NCBI RefSeq assembly: GCF_913055775.1
Contig: NZ_CAJXJX010000007.1
Span: forward strand, 1 to 36,745
Origin: an uncultured Demequina sp.
GTDB lineage: Bacteria; Actinomycetota; Actinomycetes; Actinomycetales; Demequinaceae
DNA: 36,745 nt
Direction: 5' to 3'
Part shown: positions 14,048 through 20,207 of the stretch, one piece after another
How positions within the stretch are numbered: the stretch's first letter is position 1
Layout: the number at the start of each line of letters is the position of its first letter
The notes under the pieces: model-generated
What the model saw: the letters and a program-made list of their open reading frames with translations, nothing else
The model's database searches: none
What the model was told of the DNA's origin: nothing
Made by a program: the position numbers and the translations under genes

Positions 14048-15286
14048 TCAGGCAGTCGCGAAGGTGAGGGCCACGTTGTGGCCGCCGAAGCCGAACGAGT
14101 TGTTGATCGCGGCGAGGTCGCCATCTGCCGGAAGCGCCCGGGGCACGTCGCGCACCAGGTCGACCTGCAGCTCAGGGTCGGGCTCCGAGACATTGATGGT
14201 CGGGGGAGCCGTGCGCTCGACCAGCGCCTTGATGGTGAACACGGACTCGAGCGCGCCCGCGCCGCCGAGGAGGTGCCCCGTCATCGACTTGGTCGCGCTC
14301 AGCAGCACCTGGTCGGCGTGGTCGCCCAGGAGGCCCCTGATGCCCCGAGCCTCGATCATGTCGCCCACCGGCGTCGACGTGGCGTGAGCATTGACGTGAG
14401 CGACGTCGCGGGCGGTGAGCCCGGCGCGCTCGAGGCTCAGCTGCATGGCCCGAGTCTGGCCGGTGCCGTTGGGCTCCGGCGCGGCGATGTGGTGGCCGTC
14501 TGCGGTCATGCCGACGCCCAGGAGCCTGGCGTAGATGTGCGCGCCGCGCGCACGGGCGTGCTCCTCGGACTCGAGCACGACGACGCCGGATCCCTCTCCC
14601 AGCACGAAGCCGTCTCGAGAGACGTCGTACGGTCGCGACGCCGCCGCGGGGTCGTCGTTGCGCTTGGACAGCGCCGCCATCGCTGCGAACGCGCTGATGG
14701 GGAGCGGATGGATCGCGGCCTCAGTGCCACCTGCCACGACCACGTCCGCCCTGCCCGACTGGATCATCTCGAAGCCCATCCCGATGGCCTCGGCGCCCGA
14801 CGCGCACGCCGACACGGGGGAGTGGGAGCCCGCGCGGGCGGTGAGCTCGAGCGAGACGTACGCCGTCGGCGAGTTGGGCATCAGCATCGGCACGGTGAGC
14901 GGCAGGACGCGCGACGCGCCCTTCTCCTTCATCGTGTCCCACGCGCTCAGCAGCGTCCACACGCCGCCGATGCCCGACGACACCACGGCGCCCAGGCGCT
15001 CGGGGTCGATCTCGGGCGAGCCCGCATCGGCCCAGGCCTCGCGCGTGGCCACGATCGCCATCTGGGCGCTCGGGTCCATGCGCTTGGCCTCGGGCCGCGA
15101 GACCACCTCCGTCGCCGGCACCGCCAACTGCCCCGCGAAGTTCACGGCCATGCCGTAGGTCTCCGCCCAGTCGTTGTCGAGGGTGCGCACGCCGGATCGC
15201 CCGGCAAGCGCGGCCTCCCAGGTGCTGGGCACGTCCCCGCCGAGCGGGTTGGTGGTGCCGAGTCCGGTGACGACGACTGTGGTCAT
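14048..15286 (-). CDS. fabF: 3-oxoacyl-[ACP] synthase II
   Basis: Condenses malonyl-ACP with growing acyl-ACP in type II fatty acid synthesis. The 412 residues show the KASII fold with the full Cys-His-His triad: C161 in VSACASGAEAIG, H301 in NAHATSTPVGD and H338 in KSMTGHLLGGAG, plus K333. The start ATG at 15286 yields MTTVVVTGLGTTNPLGGDV, the normal N-terminus, with an AGGAGG-type site (tccAGGAGGaccctc on the coding strand). It is the last gene of the fabD-fabH-acpP-fabF operon, 59 bases after acpP. KASII-type length and motifs exclude a polyketide-type assignment, and no AT or KR genes adjoin. Confidence 0.96.
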   Translation of the reverse strand: MTTVVVTGLGTTNPLGGDVPSTWEAALAGRSGVRTLDNDWAETYGMAVNFAGQLAVPATEVVSRPEAKRMDPSAQMAIVATREAWADAGSPEIDPERLGAVVSSGIGGVWTLLSAWDTMKEKGASRVLPLTVPMLMPNSPTAYVSLELTARAGSHSPVSACASGAEAIGMGFEMIQSGRADVVVAGGTEAAIHPLPISAFAAMAALSKRNDDPAAASRPYDVSRDGFVLGEGSGVVVLESEEHARARGAHIYARLLGVGMTADGHHIAAPEPNGTGQTRAMQLSLERAGLTARDVAHVNAHATSTPVGDMIEARGIRGLLGDHADQVLLSATKSMTGHLLGGAGALESVFTIKALVERTAPPTINVSEPDPELQVDLVRDVPRALPADGDLAAINNSFGFGGHNVALTFATA

Positions 15287-15345: not shown

Positions 15346-15591
15346 TCAGCCCTGCGCGGCGCCGATGAAGGTGACGGCGTCGCCGACGGTGGTGAGGTCC
15401 TTGACCTTCTCGTCGGGGATGCGCACGTCGAACTTCTCCTCGGCGAGCGTGACGATGGTCATCATCGACAGCGAGTCGATGTCGAGGTCATCGGTGAAGG
15501 ACTTGTCGAGCTGGACCTCGGCGGTGTCGAGGCCGGTCTCCTCGGCCACGATCTCGGCGAGGCCGGCGAGGATCTCAGTGGTGTCTGCCAT
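15346..15591 (-). CDS. acpP: Acyl carrier protein
   Basis: Carries the growing acyl chain on a 4'-phosphopantetheine arm. It is an 81-residue acidic four-helix protein with the attachment site DIDSLSMM; S40 is the modified serine. The ATG at 15591 is preceded by AAGGAGAAG, a strong ribosome site, as expected for a highly expressed protein; a longer in-frame reading begins at 15627 but adds a non-ACP leader. It lies between fabH (80 bases upstream) and fabF (59 bases downstream), the standard actinobacterial order. Confidence 0.97.
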   Translation of the reverse strand: MADTTEILAGLAEIVAEETGLDTAEVQLDKSFTDDLDIDSLSMMTIVTLAEEKFDVRIPDEKVKDLTTVGDAVTFIGAAQG

Positions 15592-15671
15592 GTGTTCTTC
15601 TCCTTGTGCTGGGTGATGCCGGGGCATCGGGGTTCGTGAGGGACGTAGGAACTCTAGTGCGGTCGGCCTGC

Positions 15672-16670
15672 CTAGGGCAGGACGACCACCTGCGCGGCGT
15701 AGACCAGGCCCGCGCCGAAGCCGATCTGCAGCGCGAGGTCGCCGCTGGCAGCGTCGCCGTCGCGCAGCATGCGCTCGGTCGCGAGAGGGATGGACGCCGC
15801 CGACGTGTTGCCGCTGTCGACGATGTCGCGGCCGACCTTCACGTGCTCGGGCAGGCCGATCTGCTTGACCATCTGGTCGATGATGCGGATGTTCGCCTGG
15901 TGGGGGATGAACGCCTTGATGTCGTCAGGCGTGACACCGGCGGCCTCGATCGCCTCGCGCGCGACAGGGGCCATCTTGAAAGACGCCCACTTGAACACGG
16001 ACGGGCCTTCCTGCACGAGCGTGGGGAAGGCGGTGTCGCGGTCGTCGCGCACGTCCAGCCAGGACGTGGTCTGGCGAATGAGCTGGGACCCTGCGCCGTC
16101 CGATCCCCACACCGTGGGGCCGATGCCGGGCGTGTCAGATGCGCTCACGACGACGGCGCCCGCGGCATCTCCGAGCAGGTAGGAGATCGATCGGTCGGCG
16201 GGATCGACGAAGTCGCTCATCTTCTCCGCCCCCACGACGAGGACGTTCCGGGCATTGCCCGAGCGCACGAGCGCATCGGCCTGGCCGATGCCGTAGCAGT
16301 ACCCCGCGCAGGCTGCGGAGATGTCGAAGGCCGCTCCGGTCGAGCCCAGGCGATCCGCGAGCACCGGGGCGCCGCCCGGCGTCATGTGCGGATAGGTGAT
16401 GGTGGAGAGGATCACGGCGTCGATCTCGGCACCGCTCACGCCTGCCTGCTCGAGCGCGATGAGCGAGGCCCGCTCCGACAGGTCGAGGACCGAGGTGTCC
16501 TCGTCGGCCCGCACGCGGGGCACGATGCCGGTCCTCTTGCGGATCCACTCATCGGAGGAGTTGATCGGCTCGATGATGTCCTCGTTCGGGACCGCGTTCT
16601 CGCCGCGGGCGACGCCGAGGCCGGCGATCCGGGAGAACTCGGCTCCTCGACGGATGTTCAAGGTCGTCAC
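15672..16670 (-). CDS. fabH: 3-oxoacyl-[ACP] synthase III
   Basis: Starts fatty acid synthesis by condensing an acyl-CoA primer with malonyl-ACP. The 332 residues contain the thiolase-fold catalytic triad: C121 in DISAACAGYCYGIG, H257 in FIPHQANIRIID and N288 in SGNTSAASIPLA. The start is GTG 16670, overlapping the fabD stop by GTGA, so the two are coupled. N-terminal motifs NEDIIEPINSSDEWIRKRTGI and RVRADEDTSVLD are typical. In actinobacteria this enzyme often prefers branched-chain primers, which would suit iso/anteiso lipids; this is family knowledge, not visible here. Confidence 0.96.
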   Translation of the reverse strand: MTTLNIRRGAEFSRIAGLGVARGENAVPNEDIIEPINSSDEWIRKRTGIVPRVRADEDTSVLDLSERASLIALEQAGVSGAEIDAVILSTITYPHMTPGGAPVLADRLGSTGAAFDISAACAGYCYGIGQADALVRSGNARNVLVVGAEKMSDFVDPADRSISYLLGDAAGAVVVSASDTPGIGPTVWGSDGAGSQLIRQTTSWLDVRDDRDTAFPTLVQEGPSVFKWASFKMAPVAREAIEAAGVTPDDIKAFIPHQANIRIIDQMVKQIGLPEHVKVGRDIVDSGNTSAASIPLATERMLRDGDAASGDLALQIGFGAGLVYAAQVVVLP

Positions 16671-17581
16671 GCGTGCTGCTCCAGGAGTTCTCGGGCGGCG
16701 GGGAGGTCGTCGGGCGTTTTGAGTGCGACGGCAGGCACGCCCTTCAGCGAGCGCTTGGCGAGTCCGGTCAGGACGCCTCCGGGTGCCACCTCGATGATCC
16801 CGGTGACGCCGTGATCGAGCATACGCTCCTGGCACAGATCCCAGCGGACGGGATTGGCGACCTGCCGGACGATGCGGTCGAGGGCGTCGGCGCCCGTCGC
16901 CACGGACTCTCCGTCCGCGTTCGACAGCAGCGTGGTGGCGGGGTCCTGCGGAGCAACCTGGCTGGCAGCCTCGGCCAGGGCCGCGACCGCGGGTGCCATG
17001 TACGCGGTGTGGAAGGCACCCGCCACCTGGAGCTCGATGGCTCGCGTGCGCGTCGGGGGCTGGGCGACGAGAGCCTCGATGGCCGCCTTCGCACCAGCGG
17101 CCACGATCTGTCCGCCACCGTTCATGTTGGCGGGGGTGAGGCCCAGCTCCTCGAGCCTGGCCACGACGTCTGCCGGCACGCCGCCGAGAACGGCCGCCAT
17201 CGACGTGGGCTCGGCCGCCGCAGCGGCCGCAGCCATCGCCTGCGAGCGCACGGTGACGAGGCTCATGGCGGCGGCATCGTCGATGACCCCCGCGAGGGCC
17301 GCCGCTCCCAGCTCGCCGACGCTGTGTCCCGCGATCAGGCCGGCGGTCGAGTCGCCGAGCACCGCACGCGCCGTGGCGAGACCCGTCGCCACCAGGAGCG
17401 GCTGGGCGATCGCCGTGTCGCGAATGGTGTCCGCATCGGAGCTCATGCCGTGAGCGATGACGTCGACGCTTGTGGCTTCCGACAAGGCCTCGAGAGCGGT
17501 CGCGACCTCGGGAAGCTCGAGCCAGGGCTCCAGCATCCCGGGGGATTGAGCTCCCTGACCGGGAAACAGAACAGCGATCAT
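16667..17581 (-). CDS. fabD: Malonyl-CoA:ACP transacylase
   Basis: Loads malonate from CoA onto ACP. A 304-residue alpha/beta enzyme with MIAVLFPGQGAQSPGM at the N-terminus, the nucleophile elbow GHSVGE (S87), the catalytic His in AGAFHTAYM (H191) and a GQIVAAG segment. The ATG at 17581 is the normal start; a reading frame continues open upstream for another 380 codons, but it lies antisense-frame over fasR and has no FabD similarity. An alternative ATG 18 bases upstream would add MGDARS. fabD is the first gene of the fab operon, 77 bases after the fasR stop, with a candidate regulator site in that gap. Confidence 0.96.
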   Translation of the reverse strand: MIAVLFPGQGAQSPGMLEPWLELPEVATALEALSEATSVDVIAHGMSSDADTIRDTAIAQPLLVATGLATARAVLGDSTAGLIAGHSVGELGAAALAGVIDDAAAMSLVTVRSQAMAAAAAAAEPTSMAAVLGGVPADVVARLEELGLTPANMNGGGQIVAAGAKAAIEALVAQPPTRTRAIELQVAGAFHTAYMAPAVAALAEAASQVAPQDPATTLLSNADGESVATGADALDRIVRQVANPVRWDLCQERMLDHGVTGIIEVAPGGVLTGLAKRSLKGVPAVALKTPDDLPAARELLEQHA

Positions 17582-17647
17582 GCTCCTAGCATCTCCCATC
17601 TGAGCCGGGGCGGCCCGGATTTTCGTGACGGTTTCGGCCGCCCGTGT

Positions 17648-17664
17648 TTGTCGGATATCTACAA
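17648..17664. promoter_or_regulatory. Candidate FasR site upstream of fabD
   Basis: TTGTCGGATATCTACAA lies 66 to 83 bases upstream of the fabD start and overlaps the fasR stop. It matches the fasR-upstream palindrome at 12 of 17 positions, with identical TTGTCG left and ACAA right ends, but is itself an imperfect repeat. The link to FasR is inferred from position and similarity. Confidence 0.4.
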
Positions 17665-18840
17665 CGGGGTGTGTGCGGAGTCGCGAAGCCGACCGAGAGC
17701 GAATGCCGTCTCGAGCACGTGGGCGTCGCGGGTCGACAGCACGTCCCAGCCGGTGAGCTGCGCCACCTTCTTCAGGCGGTAGCGCACGGTGTTCGCGTGA
17801 ACGAACATGGTGCGAGCGGCGAGTTCGAGCGAGCGGCCGCAGTCGAGGTACGTCGCGATGGTCTCGCCCAGCGAACCGCCGGCGCGCTGGATCGGGTCGT
17901 AGGCGATGGTGATCAGGCGCTCGCGCGCGGCCGCGTCGCCCACCAGGACACGCTCGGGGAGCAGGTCGTCGGCGGCGGTGGGGCGCGGGGCGAGCGACCA
18001 CGCGGGAGCGGCGACCACTCCGGACAGCGCGGCGCGGGTCGATCGCGCGACCTCCACCAAGGTGATGGCGGCAGGACCGATGACCACTGGTCCGGGCCCG
18101 AAGCTCGACAGCAGCTGCCTCGCGAGCGTGGGGTGGTCGTCGTCCGAGCGCGCGATCACGATGAGGTCCTCCCCGTGGATGCCGACGAGGGCGCCGGGAG
18201 CGGCACGCCGGATGGTGCGGCGGAGCTCCGCCGACTGCACCTCGCCCAAGGTGCCATCTGTCAGGCCCACCATCGCGAGCGTGGGCCCAGGCTTCCAGCC
18301 GAGCGCCGCCGCACGCGAGGGGAGGTCCTCGTCGATCTCGCCGCGCACGAGGGCGTCGACCACGAGCGCTTCGAGCCGCGCGTCCCAGGCGCCGCGGGTC
18401 TCCGCGGCGCGCGCATAGACCTCGGCTGCGGAGAAGGCGATCTCGCGCGAGTAGACGAGGATCGCCTCGCGAACCTCGCGCTCCGATCCCGGCGACGCGA
18501 AGCCGTCCGCGTTGTCCTCCACCACTCTCACCACGGTGCGAACGATCGACAGCGTGTGCTGGAGCGACACTGATCGCGTGAGCTCCGGTGGCGCGGCGGC
18601 GAACACCTCGGTCGCACTGCGGTGGCTGTGCTGTGGGTCGGCGTACCAGGCGACGAAGGAGTCGATTCCGGCCTGGGCGACGGTGCCCACCCACGAGCGC
18701 TCCTGGGCGGGCAGTTCCCGGAACCACGAGTACTCGGCATCAAGGCTCGTGATGGCGGCTGTCGACAGACGGCCCGTCGCCGAGCGGAGACGGCGAAGGG
18801 TCTCCGCACGCGACTGGGTCATGGCCATGGCGGCCAGCAT
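17659..18840 (-). CDS. fasR: PucR-type transcriptional regulator of fatty acid synthesis (FasR-like)
   Basis: A 393-residue regulator resembling Streptomyces FasR, which activates the fabD-fabH-acpP-fabF operon; the gene order here is the same. The N-terminal part (about 1-160) is helical, with WFRELPAQERSWVGTVAQAGIDSF. A middle GGDEF-like/CdaR region follows (PTLAMVGL...GALVGIHGEDLIVIARSD), and the C-terminus has the PucR helix-turn-helix: ETIATYLDCGRSLELAARTMFVHANTVRYRLKKVAQLTGWD. Start is uncertain among ATGs at 18840, 18828 and 18822, none with a good ribosome site. It lies directly before fabD. A 17-bp perfect palindrome 9 bases upstream of its start suggests autoregulation. Symbol by family and context. 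Confidence 0.88.
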   Translation of the reverse strand: MLAAMAMTQSRAETLRRLRSATGRLSTAAITSLDAEYSWFRELPAQERSWVGTVAQAGIDSFVAWYADPQHSHRSATEVFAAAPPELTRSVSLQHTLSIVRTVVRVVEDNADGFASPGSEREVREAILVYSREIAFSAAEVYARAAETRGAWDARLEALVVDALVRGEIDEDLPSRAAALGWKPGPTLAMVGLTDGTLGEVQSAELRRTIRRAAPGALVGIHGEDLIVIARSDDDHPTLARQLLSSFGPGPVVIGPAAITLVEVARSTRAALSGVVAAPAWSLAPRPTAADDLLPERVLVGDAAARERLITIAYDPIQRAGGSLGETIATYLDCGRSLELAARTMFVHANTVRYRLKKVAQLTGWDVLSTRDAHVLETAFALGRLRDSAHTPL

Positions 18841-18848
18841 AGGGCGGT

Positions 18849-18865
18849 TTGTCGAGACTCGACAA
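18849..18865. promoter_or_regulatory. 17-bp perfect palindrome upstream of fasR
   Basis: TTGTCGAGACTCGACAA is an 8-bp inverted repeat about a single central A, 9 bases upstream of the fasR start. A 17-bp perfect palindrome at a regulator promoter is a strong operator candidate. The other 160 bases of this divergent gap show nothing I recognise. Confidence 0.65.
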
Positions 18866-19022
18866 TCGCCGGCGAGCCGGATCCGCTTCTCAGGGTTCTC
18901 AGCCCCGATCGATTGTGCAAGGCCTCCAACCAGGCTTGCCTCGAGGCCGCCTTCCGGCCCGCAGTCCTCGCCAAGAACGGGTCGCGCCGCTACGGTGAGT
19001 CCCAGGTGACACAGAGGAGTCG

Positions 19023-20207
19023 ATGATGACAGACGCTCGCCCCAAGCCCCTGGTGGGTGCCCTGCTCGGTCTGCTGCTGGGCCTCGTGGTGGTGGCCCTC
19101 CTGTGGATCACCGGTGTCCTTCCACCGGACCGGCTGCCGCTCTTCGGCATCGTCGCGCTCTCGATCTTCGTCGTGGGGTGGATCCTGACCCAGCGCATGA
19201 GCCTGGTGCGGGCGAAGTTCATCATCGTCGTCATCATCTCCGCGACGCTCGGCGGCGTCGCGCTGACCGGCATCCCGGAGTTCATGGGCGGCGGTTCGCT
19301 GTCCGATGGCTGCCATCTGGACGCGTCGTCCTCACTCGAGCCCGCTCAGATCGGACCCGAGGACACCGCGGCGATGAACCCGTTCGACGTCACCACGACC
19401 GACACGATCTCCTGGAACTCGAGCTCGGATGCGGTTCTCACTGATTGGAACGCGGGGCTCTACGTGGTGGTCGGGGGCTTCGACATCCCTCTGTGGAGCG
19501 GCGAGCACGAGAACTCGGGCGAGGCCCAGGAGTGGGCCGGAGACGAGGCCGTCGAGCCCCACATCGATTCTGTCCAGAACCGCACAGGGATCGTCGTGAC
19601 CGGCACGTACCACGTGCACGGGTCGCTGACGGCCGACGGGGGAGACTGCGACATGCAGGCCTACGTCCGCGTCGCGCCGGCAAGCGCGTTCGACGGGATC
19701 CTGCTGGCGGCCCTGTGGGCGCTGCTGGTGGTGATCATCATCGTGATCATCATCGTGGCGGTCGGCGTGCGCCGCTCGATCAAGGCGGCCGATGCGGCGC
19801 TCGCCATGGTGGGGACGTCGGCCATCGCAGGAGAGACGAGCACTGCGGAGCCGGCGGGTGCCGGAGCCGCAGCCGGTGCCGCAGCGGCTGGAGCAGCCGC
19901 TGCAGGCGCGGCCGCGGACACGTCGTCCGAGGACGAGGCCGCCGGAGACGCACCCGCGAGCACCGACGGAATCTCCTCGTATGCGGAGTACCGCCAGGCC
20001 GATGAGGATGCGCGTGACAAGGCGCTCGGAGAGCAGGCTTCGGACGGCTCGTTCGACCAGGACAACTGGCGCTCCATCGATGACAGCCGTGGTCTCGGCG
20101 ACCTGCTCGACACGCCCGATGCGGAAGGCACGGATGACGAAGCCGCCGCGGCCGATGACGACCAGGCCGGACCGGATCAGCCGCGCGGACCGGGCGGCGG
20201 CATCTAG
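19023..20207 (+). CDS. Membrane protein of unknown function
   Basis: A 394-residue protein with three N-terminal membrane helices (about 10-30, 38-57, 65-85), an extracytoplasmic domain (about 90-222) with C97 and C209 that could form one disulfide, a very hydrophobic fourth helix (about 225-248, LLVVIIIVIIIVAVGV) and a long cytoplasmic tail. The tail has an Ala/Gly run (about 275-305) and then an acidic low-complexity end. I do not recognise the family. ATG 19023 and ATG 19026 both follow a GAGGAG site. Four helices put both termini in the cytoplasm. Between fasR and aceE it has no obvious functional link to either. Confidence 0.75.
   Translation: MMTDARPKPLVGALLGLLLGLVVVALLWITGVLPPDRLPLFGIVALSIFVVGWILTQRMSLVRAKFIIVVIISATLGGVALTGIPEFMGGGSLSDGCHLDASSSLEPAQIGPEDTAAMNPFDVTTTDTISWNSSSDAVLTDWNAGLYVVVGGFDIPLWSGEHENSGEAQEWAGDEAVEPHIDSVQNRTGIVVTGTYHVHGSLTADGGDCDMQAYVRVAPASAFDGILLAALWALLVVIIIVIIIVAVGVRRSIKAADAALAMVGTSAIAGETSTAEPAGAGAAAGAAAAGAAAAGAAADTSSEDEAAGDAPASTDGISSYAEYRQADEDARDKALGEQASDGSFDQDNWRSIDDSRGLGDLLDTPDAEGTDDEAAAADDDQAGPDQPRGPGGGI

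Follow-up and report, generated by a model that had tools for sequence, protein, structure and literature searches.

MabR (Rv2242) is a PucR-type regulator, orthologous to the FasR protein treated here and, like it, encoded just upstream of fabD. In the accessible text of PMC5541348, it is reported to activate the fasII operon, with a DNA affinity modulated by long-chain acyl-CoA, and to recognise the sequence 5'-TTTTGT(N)9ACAAAA-3' in the fasII promoter, replaced repeats being left unbound. The same text gives −87 and −147, counted from the start of transcription, as the positions of the MabR operators, and the same core is carried by the 23-base MabR oligonucleotide in the accessible part of PMC11617747. 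FasR of Streptomyces coelicolor is described as 42% identical to MabR, as reading highly similar repeats near −67 and as inducing its operon (PMC5541348, same portion). The word stem 'autoregul' is absent from the main text of PMC5541348 and PMC11617747. The TetR-type FasR of Corynebacterium glutamicum, which links acc control with fatty-acid synthesis in the accessible part of PMC11602165, belongs to an unrelated family and has the name alone in common with the FasR of this study. The same part describes direct transcriptional control of acetyl-CoA carboxylase genes as poorly known, and names TetR proteins as the sole confirmed regulators of acc operons before the LysR-type AccR was added.

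The window, that is, the whole stretch of DNA that was analysed (36,745 nucleotides), belongs to the genome of an uncultured Demequina sp. (2.7 Mb in 208 contigs). The genes of the locus are the following:

17659..18828, minus strand: fasR (start proposed), PucR-family regulator, MabR orthologue, with domains PF17853 (GGDEF-like) and PF13556 (PucR HTH)
16667..17581, minus strand: fabD, malonyl-CoA:ACP transacylase (PF00698), first gene of the fabD-fabH-acpP-fabF operon
15672..16670, minus strand: fabH, 3-oxoacyl-ACP synthase III (start approximate)
15346..15594, minus strand: acpP, acyl carrier protein (start approximate)
14048..15286, minus strand: fabF, 3-oxoacyl-ACP synthase II

The longest open reading frame of fasR covers 17659–18840 on the minus strand and is followed by fabD, fabH, acpP and fabF. 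Both Pfam domains of FasR scored above their cut-offs, and no TetR N-terminal DNA-binding domain was detected in the Pfam scan of the protein; the match of fabD to NCBIfam TIGR00128 lies below the cut-off. FasR matches both crystallised MabR domains, 9f80 (E 4e-50) and 9fb1 (E 3e-18), and its DNA-binding helix-turn-helix stretch is nearly intact (FVHANTVRYRLKKV in FasR, FVHPNTVRYRLKRI in MabR). FasR (SCO2386) of S. coelicolor is the same regulator, with the same fabDHPF target. The regulator itself, this type of operator and fabD as its target have all been described before. A gene order with fasR directly upstream of fabD on the same strand is found in the window and in all 46 Demequinaceae loci that were compared. 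In one of them (L047, genome G041) the fasR frame contains one TGA and its first 19 residues are unaligned, possibly through an assembly fault; the operator described below is still present there. An Rfam scan of positions 17400–19100 gave no match.

Two FasR operator candidates with a TTGT-N9-ACAA core were located:

18849..18865, minus strand: TTGTCGAGACTCGACAA, site in the fasR promoter
17648..17664, minus strand: TTGTCGGATATCTACAA, site in the fabD promoter

The core occurs in the window at exactly these two places. As the first-pass annotation had reported, TTGTCGAGACTCGACAA is a perfect palindrome (8+1+8), and TTGTCGGATATCTACAA, read as given, agrees with it at 12 of 17 positions. With the opposite strand of TTGTCGGATATCTACAA the agreement is 13 of 17, and 66 nt separate the end of this site from the fabD ATG at 17581. 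The relatedness of the two sites was upheld; the 12 matching bases were not retained as the shared element, which consists of two 4-bp ends and a 9-bp spacer. The whole 17-bp palindrome was rejected as a motif, conservation being limited to the outer 4+4 bp. A search of the genome with the 17-mer (up to 3 mismatches) returned four places, of which fasR alone was relevant, and the TTGT-N9-ACAA pattern did better.

The MabR operator of the fasII promoter likewise has a TTGT-N9-ACAA core between the regulator gene and fabD. Its half-sites, however, span 6 bp (TTTTGT and ACAAAA), whereas in Demequinaceae the inner 4 bp alone are fixed and the outer TT and AA are not conserved. The full MabR half-sites are not present in the window, where the core is flanked by GA/AC at the fasR site and by CG/AC at the fabD site. 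Among 65 fabD sites of loci L135–L214 (mainly Streptomycetaceae), the two bases of the left TT are kept in 74% and 83%, and the right AA is not kept (A in 58%, then mostly T).

Conservation and position were read directly from 46 loci around fasR, taken from 44 Demequina genomes and two of a sister genus (Demequinaceae); a third genus of the family gave no FasR match. An exact TTGT-N9-ACAA stands upstream of fasR in 43 of 45 promoters, the misses being L016 (7/8) and L018 (4/8, i.e. no site); L049, whose promoter lies beyond the contig, was left out of this count. Upstream of fabD the site is exact in 39 of 46 loci and matches at 7/8 in the other seven. The first-pass annotation had named loss of the palindrome from near relatives as grounds against its proposal of a FasR binding motif. 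The site is kept, and the proposal is supported by a core that equals the published MabR operator core and is conserved at both promoters.

The comparison was extended to 60 loci of other Actinomycetales (L055–L114) from 14 further families, chosen from 254 genomes with a match (another 43 of the 297 genomes of the order gave none) and mostly limited to one locus per genus (five come from one genus). Of these 60 loci, 48 have an exact fasR site and 12 do not. For fabD, an exact site is present in 32 of 54 loci and a 7/8 match in 13 more, six loci with an unplaceable fabD start having been dropped. Among named Actinomycetales the fasR site is exact in 25 of 26; five of these 26 are Demequina, the set partly repeats the earlier genomes, and two of its 28 members were dropped for short upstream sequence. 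The inner 9 bp of the site vary freely apart from a symmetric preference for G at position 6 and for C at position 12 (79%, symmetrised set). Since the genomes are related, the counts within Demequina are not independent; the argument rests on a site that recurs in other families, on inner nine bases that are free to vary and on positions that are fixed.

The fabD site holds a rigid position. In Demequinaceae all 39 exact sites end 66–69 nt before the start codon, and so do all 33 in other Actinomycetales (one more than the 32 counted above, owing to a looser filter); the 44 exact sites found in 50 Streptomycetaceae loci all stand at 68 nt. In the seven loci of family f22, which we take to be Mycobacteriaceae, the distance is 67, 68 or 82 nt. 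These distances come from a search limited to the last 120 nt before fabD. The spacing is fixed though the fasR stop ranges from 29 nt downstream to 184 nt upstream of the first base of the site. In the window, the last fasR codon TTG (17664–17662) and the stop TAG (17661–17659) form the first six bases of the operator on the minus strand. By a strict test for TTG-TAG inside the operator, 43 of 46 Demequinaceae loci share with the window an operator that starts inside the end of the regulator gene, and 12 of 60 other loci do so by a looser pattern; as exceptions, L024 keeps TTGTAG but has a 7/8 operator, and in L014 and L015 the site lies 7 nt after the stop. Because the distance to fabD is fixed and the distance to the stop is not, the overlap suggests that the sequence was compacted around an operator of set position.

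A consensus promoter scan found no sigma-70 promoter, and −10 elements were identified by comparison of relatives:

17588..17593, minus strand: GATGCT, probable −10 hexamer of fabD, with A at −11 and T at −7
18836..18841, minus strand: TATGCT, probable −10 hexamer of a leaderless fasR promoter, containing the ATG 18840 of the longest open reading frame

With GATGCT as −10 element, the fabD transcript would be leaderless. Upstream of fabD this pair (A at −11, T at −7) occurs in 26 of 44 loci from Demequinaceae, in 41 of 55 from other Actinomycetales and in 91 of the 110 in the set L115–L224. This A/T block and a similar block before accA point to leaderless transcripts.

At fasR, the palindrome had been annotated in the first pass as lying 9 bases upstream of the gene. 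The site is close to the gene; the distance did not stand, as it is 8 nt to ATG 18840, and this codon is itself part of the probable −10 element TATGCT, which is why the fasR start was placed at 18828. The true start is probably 18828 (or 18822), and the site ends 20 nt before 18828. In relatives such as L005, the ATG equivalent to 18840 is out of frame with the conserved fasR start. In the window this operator runs from about −36 to −20, and its TTGTCG, 18 nt before TATGCT, may double as a −35 element. A TANNNT sequence 6–9 nt beyond the fasR operator was found in 42 of 43 Demequinaceae and 19 of 48 other Actinomycetales, and the same test applied to fabD operators gave 0 of 38 and 1 of 33, respectively. 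When a start codon 4–9 nt after the −10 was demanded, a −10 was found within 80 nt after the fasR operator in 43/43 Demequinaceae and 48/48 others, against 3% of shuffled stretches. The operator overlaps the −35 to −10 region in all 43 Demequinaceae and in 31 of the 48 other Actinomycetales; in the remaining 17 it lies 19–45 nt upstream of the −10.

The first-pass annotation had also proposed autoregulation, which the position of the site supports. This site overlies the −35 region of a promoter that is leaderless, so that negative autoregulation appears to be the likeliest form. FasR might instead bind both sites and activate its own gene. The accessible parts of PMC5541348 and PMC7324645 present MabR and the FasR of S. 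coelicolor as activators, and the operator stands upstream of the fasR −35 region in the above-mentioned 17 of 48 other Actinomycetales, where activation would be as plausible as repression. Five Demequina loci (L025, L027, L028, L030 and L041) carry tandem exact TTGT-N9-ACAA sites 22 bp apart, i.e. two helical turns, upstream of fasR. Against positive autoregulation speaks the overlap with the −35 to −10 region in the window and in 43/43 Demequinaceae, which is the usual position of a repressor, as well as the distance from fasR operator to −10, which differs between families, unlike the fixed fabD spacing. A rigid and distant site such as that of fabD would suit an activator, and a site atop the core promoter would suit a repressor. 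Taken together, positive autoregulation is considered unlikely and repression of fasR by its own product is preferred.

A second palindrome, (G)CCCCC-N(2-6)-GGGGG(C), was observed upstream of fasR in 13 of 45 Demequinaceae promoters (L014, L015, L016, L017, L019, L021, L023, L024, L029, L042, L043, L045 and L046), 6 or 8 nt upstream of the operator; no distance applies to L016, which has a 7/8 operator. It was absent from the fabD (46), accA (43), bioY (43) and order-level fasR (60) regions and from this window. It is possibly an operator for a second regulator of fasR.

Further targets were sought in nine Demequina genomes. Exact TTGT-N9-ACAA sites numbered 64, versus 116 for a reversed control, so there is no genome-wide enrichment. 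Of the 64 sites, 35 stand at four promoters, namely those of fasR, fabD, accA and bioY, and in genomes G028 and G031 all five exact sites are located there. Among the 29 sites elsewhere, 23 (all but six of those in G012) were read and no common target stood out, and nine of 20 such sites from six genomes lie inside open reading frames by a rough codon-bias test. One strong-looking FasR-type site, at position 1025 of L422 (G012), lies downstream of two apparent MaoC/HadAB-type dehydratase genes, an identity judged by eye from the translations. In the genome of the window, the sites at accA and bioY lie outside the window:

G000:C4:3297-3366: paired sites 53 bp apart upstream of accA, the second site 7/8
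G000:C29:18450-18466: site 92 nt upstream of bioY

The accA gene, coding for biotin carboxylase (PF00289, PF02786, PF02785), was located in 43 of 44 Demequina genomes. Each of the 43 loci carries one or more exact sites within 200 nt, and 40 of the 43 promoters display a pair 53 or 54 bp apart, with one site exact and the other at least 7/8. In many Demequina a CCTACG...CGTA stretch recurs between the paired sites. Outside Demequina, 48 genomes were chosen, two of them without accA at the threshold; an exact site within 300 nt was found in 25 of 46 and a pair in 8 of 46. The bare 53-bp pair, searched with up to 2 mismatches and no gene in the query, matched 39 of 294 genomes of the order versus 22 for the reversed control, none of the latter being Demequina. 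In Demequina the bare pair was matched in 16 of 23, always upstream of accA, and the other seven have the 54-bp spacing. It was also found upstream of accA in seven non-Demequina genomes (G103, G131, G139, G152, G155, G181 and G261), the matches in G072 and G259 lie at fasR, and most others look unrelated. Single matches of the bare pair outside Demequina carry little weight, because the reversed control matches 22 genomes and at least two matches belong to the fasR region.

For bioY (PF02632), 22 of 43 Demequina promoters contain an exact site, placed at −76 to −94, and 36 of 43 a site of at least 7/8, versus 0.1 expected when the same stretch is shuffled; seven of the 43 are without a 7/8 site. 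In the genome of the window bioY is followed by an ABC ATPase gene. On the side of the site away from bioY stands an ABC-F ATPase gene in divergent orientation, and the site could serve either of the two. On this sequence evidence, accA is very probably a FasR target in this lineage and bioY probably one, with less certainty than accA. As FasR targets both appear to be new: a literature search for which most subscription papers were out of reach turned up no account of accA or bioY being controlled by a PucR-type FasR/MabR.

Sites at bioY and accA would also fit a biotin-sensing regulator, and the operators might belong to such another protein sharing the motif. In the accessible text of PMC3398298, bioYMN of C. 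glutamicum is biotin-regulated and the TetR regulator BioQ, with the motif TGAAC-N3-GTTCA, is predicted for actinobacteria. The BioQ motif differs from TTGT-N9-ACAA, which is the motif shown for the FasR orthologue MabR (PMC5541348 and PMC11617747, accessible parts) and stands at fasR itself and at the known target fabD. Another regulator is thus regarded as very improbable, and FasR is retained as the protein that would bind these sites.

The fasR site could also be a conserved core promoter alone, with TTGT as −35 element and no operator, and TTGTCG is indeed spaced from TATGCT as a −35 hexamer would be. However, ACAA does not belong to the promoter elements, yet it is kept just as constantly as TTGT and lies exactly 9 bp off, and the distance from palindrome to −10 differs in other families. 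Spacers of 5–8 and 10–14 bp are nearly absent: almost all of these controls gave 0, the largest count being 5/46 for a 12-bp spacer at fabD. A core promoter without an operator is hardly to be expected in view of these results, and an operator placed on the promoter is the preferred reading.

Taken by itself, the palindrome says little, because the window contains nine perfect 8+1+8 palindromes versus 1.8 expected from base composition. Among 607 pieces of the window, overlapping, 120 nt long and clear of both sites, six agree with the fasR site in 12 of its 17 bases and none in 13; the resemblance of the two sites is by itself only mildly unusual. A shared TTGT-N9-ACAA that recurs at the same promoters in relatives is well beyond chance. 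Eleven other half-site pairs, tried on seven sets, gave 0 in nearly all cells and at most 2, and dinucleotide shuffles over the seven sets gave a mean of 0.02–0.07 genomes and a maximum of 2. A chance palindrome with a chance match is already refuted by conservation at fixed positions in 43/45 and 39/46 Demequinaceae promoters, against maxima of 1 genome (fasR) and 2 genomes (fabD) in 200 dinucleotide shuffles, and has practically no probability left.

The distribution of the site at the regulator gene sets Demequina apart from Streptomyces. Both share the fabD site, which in Streptomycetaceae is exact and 68 nt before fabD in 44 of 50 loci, whereas an exact site within 400 nt upstream of fasR was found in 0 of 50 named Streptomycetaceae. 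It was likewise found in 0 of 11 loci of family f21, presumably also Streptomycetaceae, and, unlike in Demequina, in 0 of 7 presumed mycobacterial loci (f22). The best scores upstream of fasR in the 50 Streptomycetaceae are 7/8 in 16, 6/8 in 25 and 5/8 in 9, and 7/8 matches occur in 2 of 11 (f21) and 2 of 7 (f22). Several of the 7/8 matches in Streptomyces represent one recurring sequence, TTGTCCGG-N-TCGTAGAA, about 190–230 nt before the aligned start.

By analogy with the published work on orthologues, TTGT-N9-ACAA would be the operator and the regulator would activate fabD; from the sequences we infer FasR binding in Demequina, repression of fasR and control of accA and bioY. A FasR dimer would read the TTGT and ACAA ends across their spacing of nine base pairs. 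The fabD operator, whose centre lies about 75 bp before the leaderless start, most likely serves activation of fabDHPF. The fasR operator covers the −35 region and the spacer, where bound FasR most likely blocks RNA polymerase, and by this block FasR would limit its own synthesis. With FasR acting at bioY, accA and fabD, biotin uptake, malonyl-CoA supply and chain elongation would move together. As a whole, a reading in which both sites are FasR operators, with likely activation of fabD, likely self-repression of fasR, very probable control of accA and probable control of bioY, is held with high confidence.

With more reserve, though still as the better supported view, this reading may be widened to the Actinomycetales. 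The PucR-type FasR would then be a negatively autoregulated master switch of the entire malonyl-CoA route, acting on bioY, on fabDHPF and, by way of a pair of operators separated by five helical turns, on accA; its site at fasR would be absent from Streptomyces and probably from mycobacteria, and the fab operator of Demequina would lie within the end of fasR. An operator shared by accA, fabD, bioY and fasR would represent a simple wiring by which malonyl-CoA supply is matched to fatty-acid synthesis, and this wiring would apply to a large group of actinobacteria. The contrast with Streptomyces would offer a natural comparison of one regulator with and without a site at its own gene.
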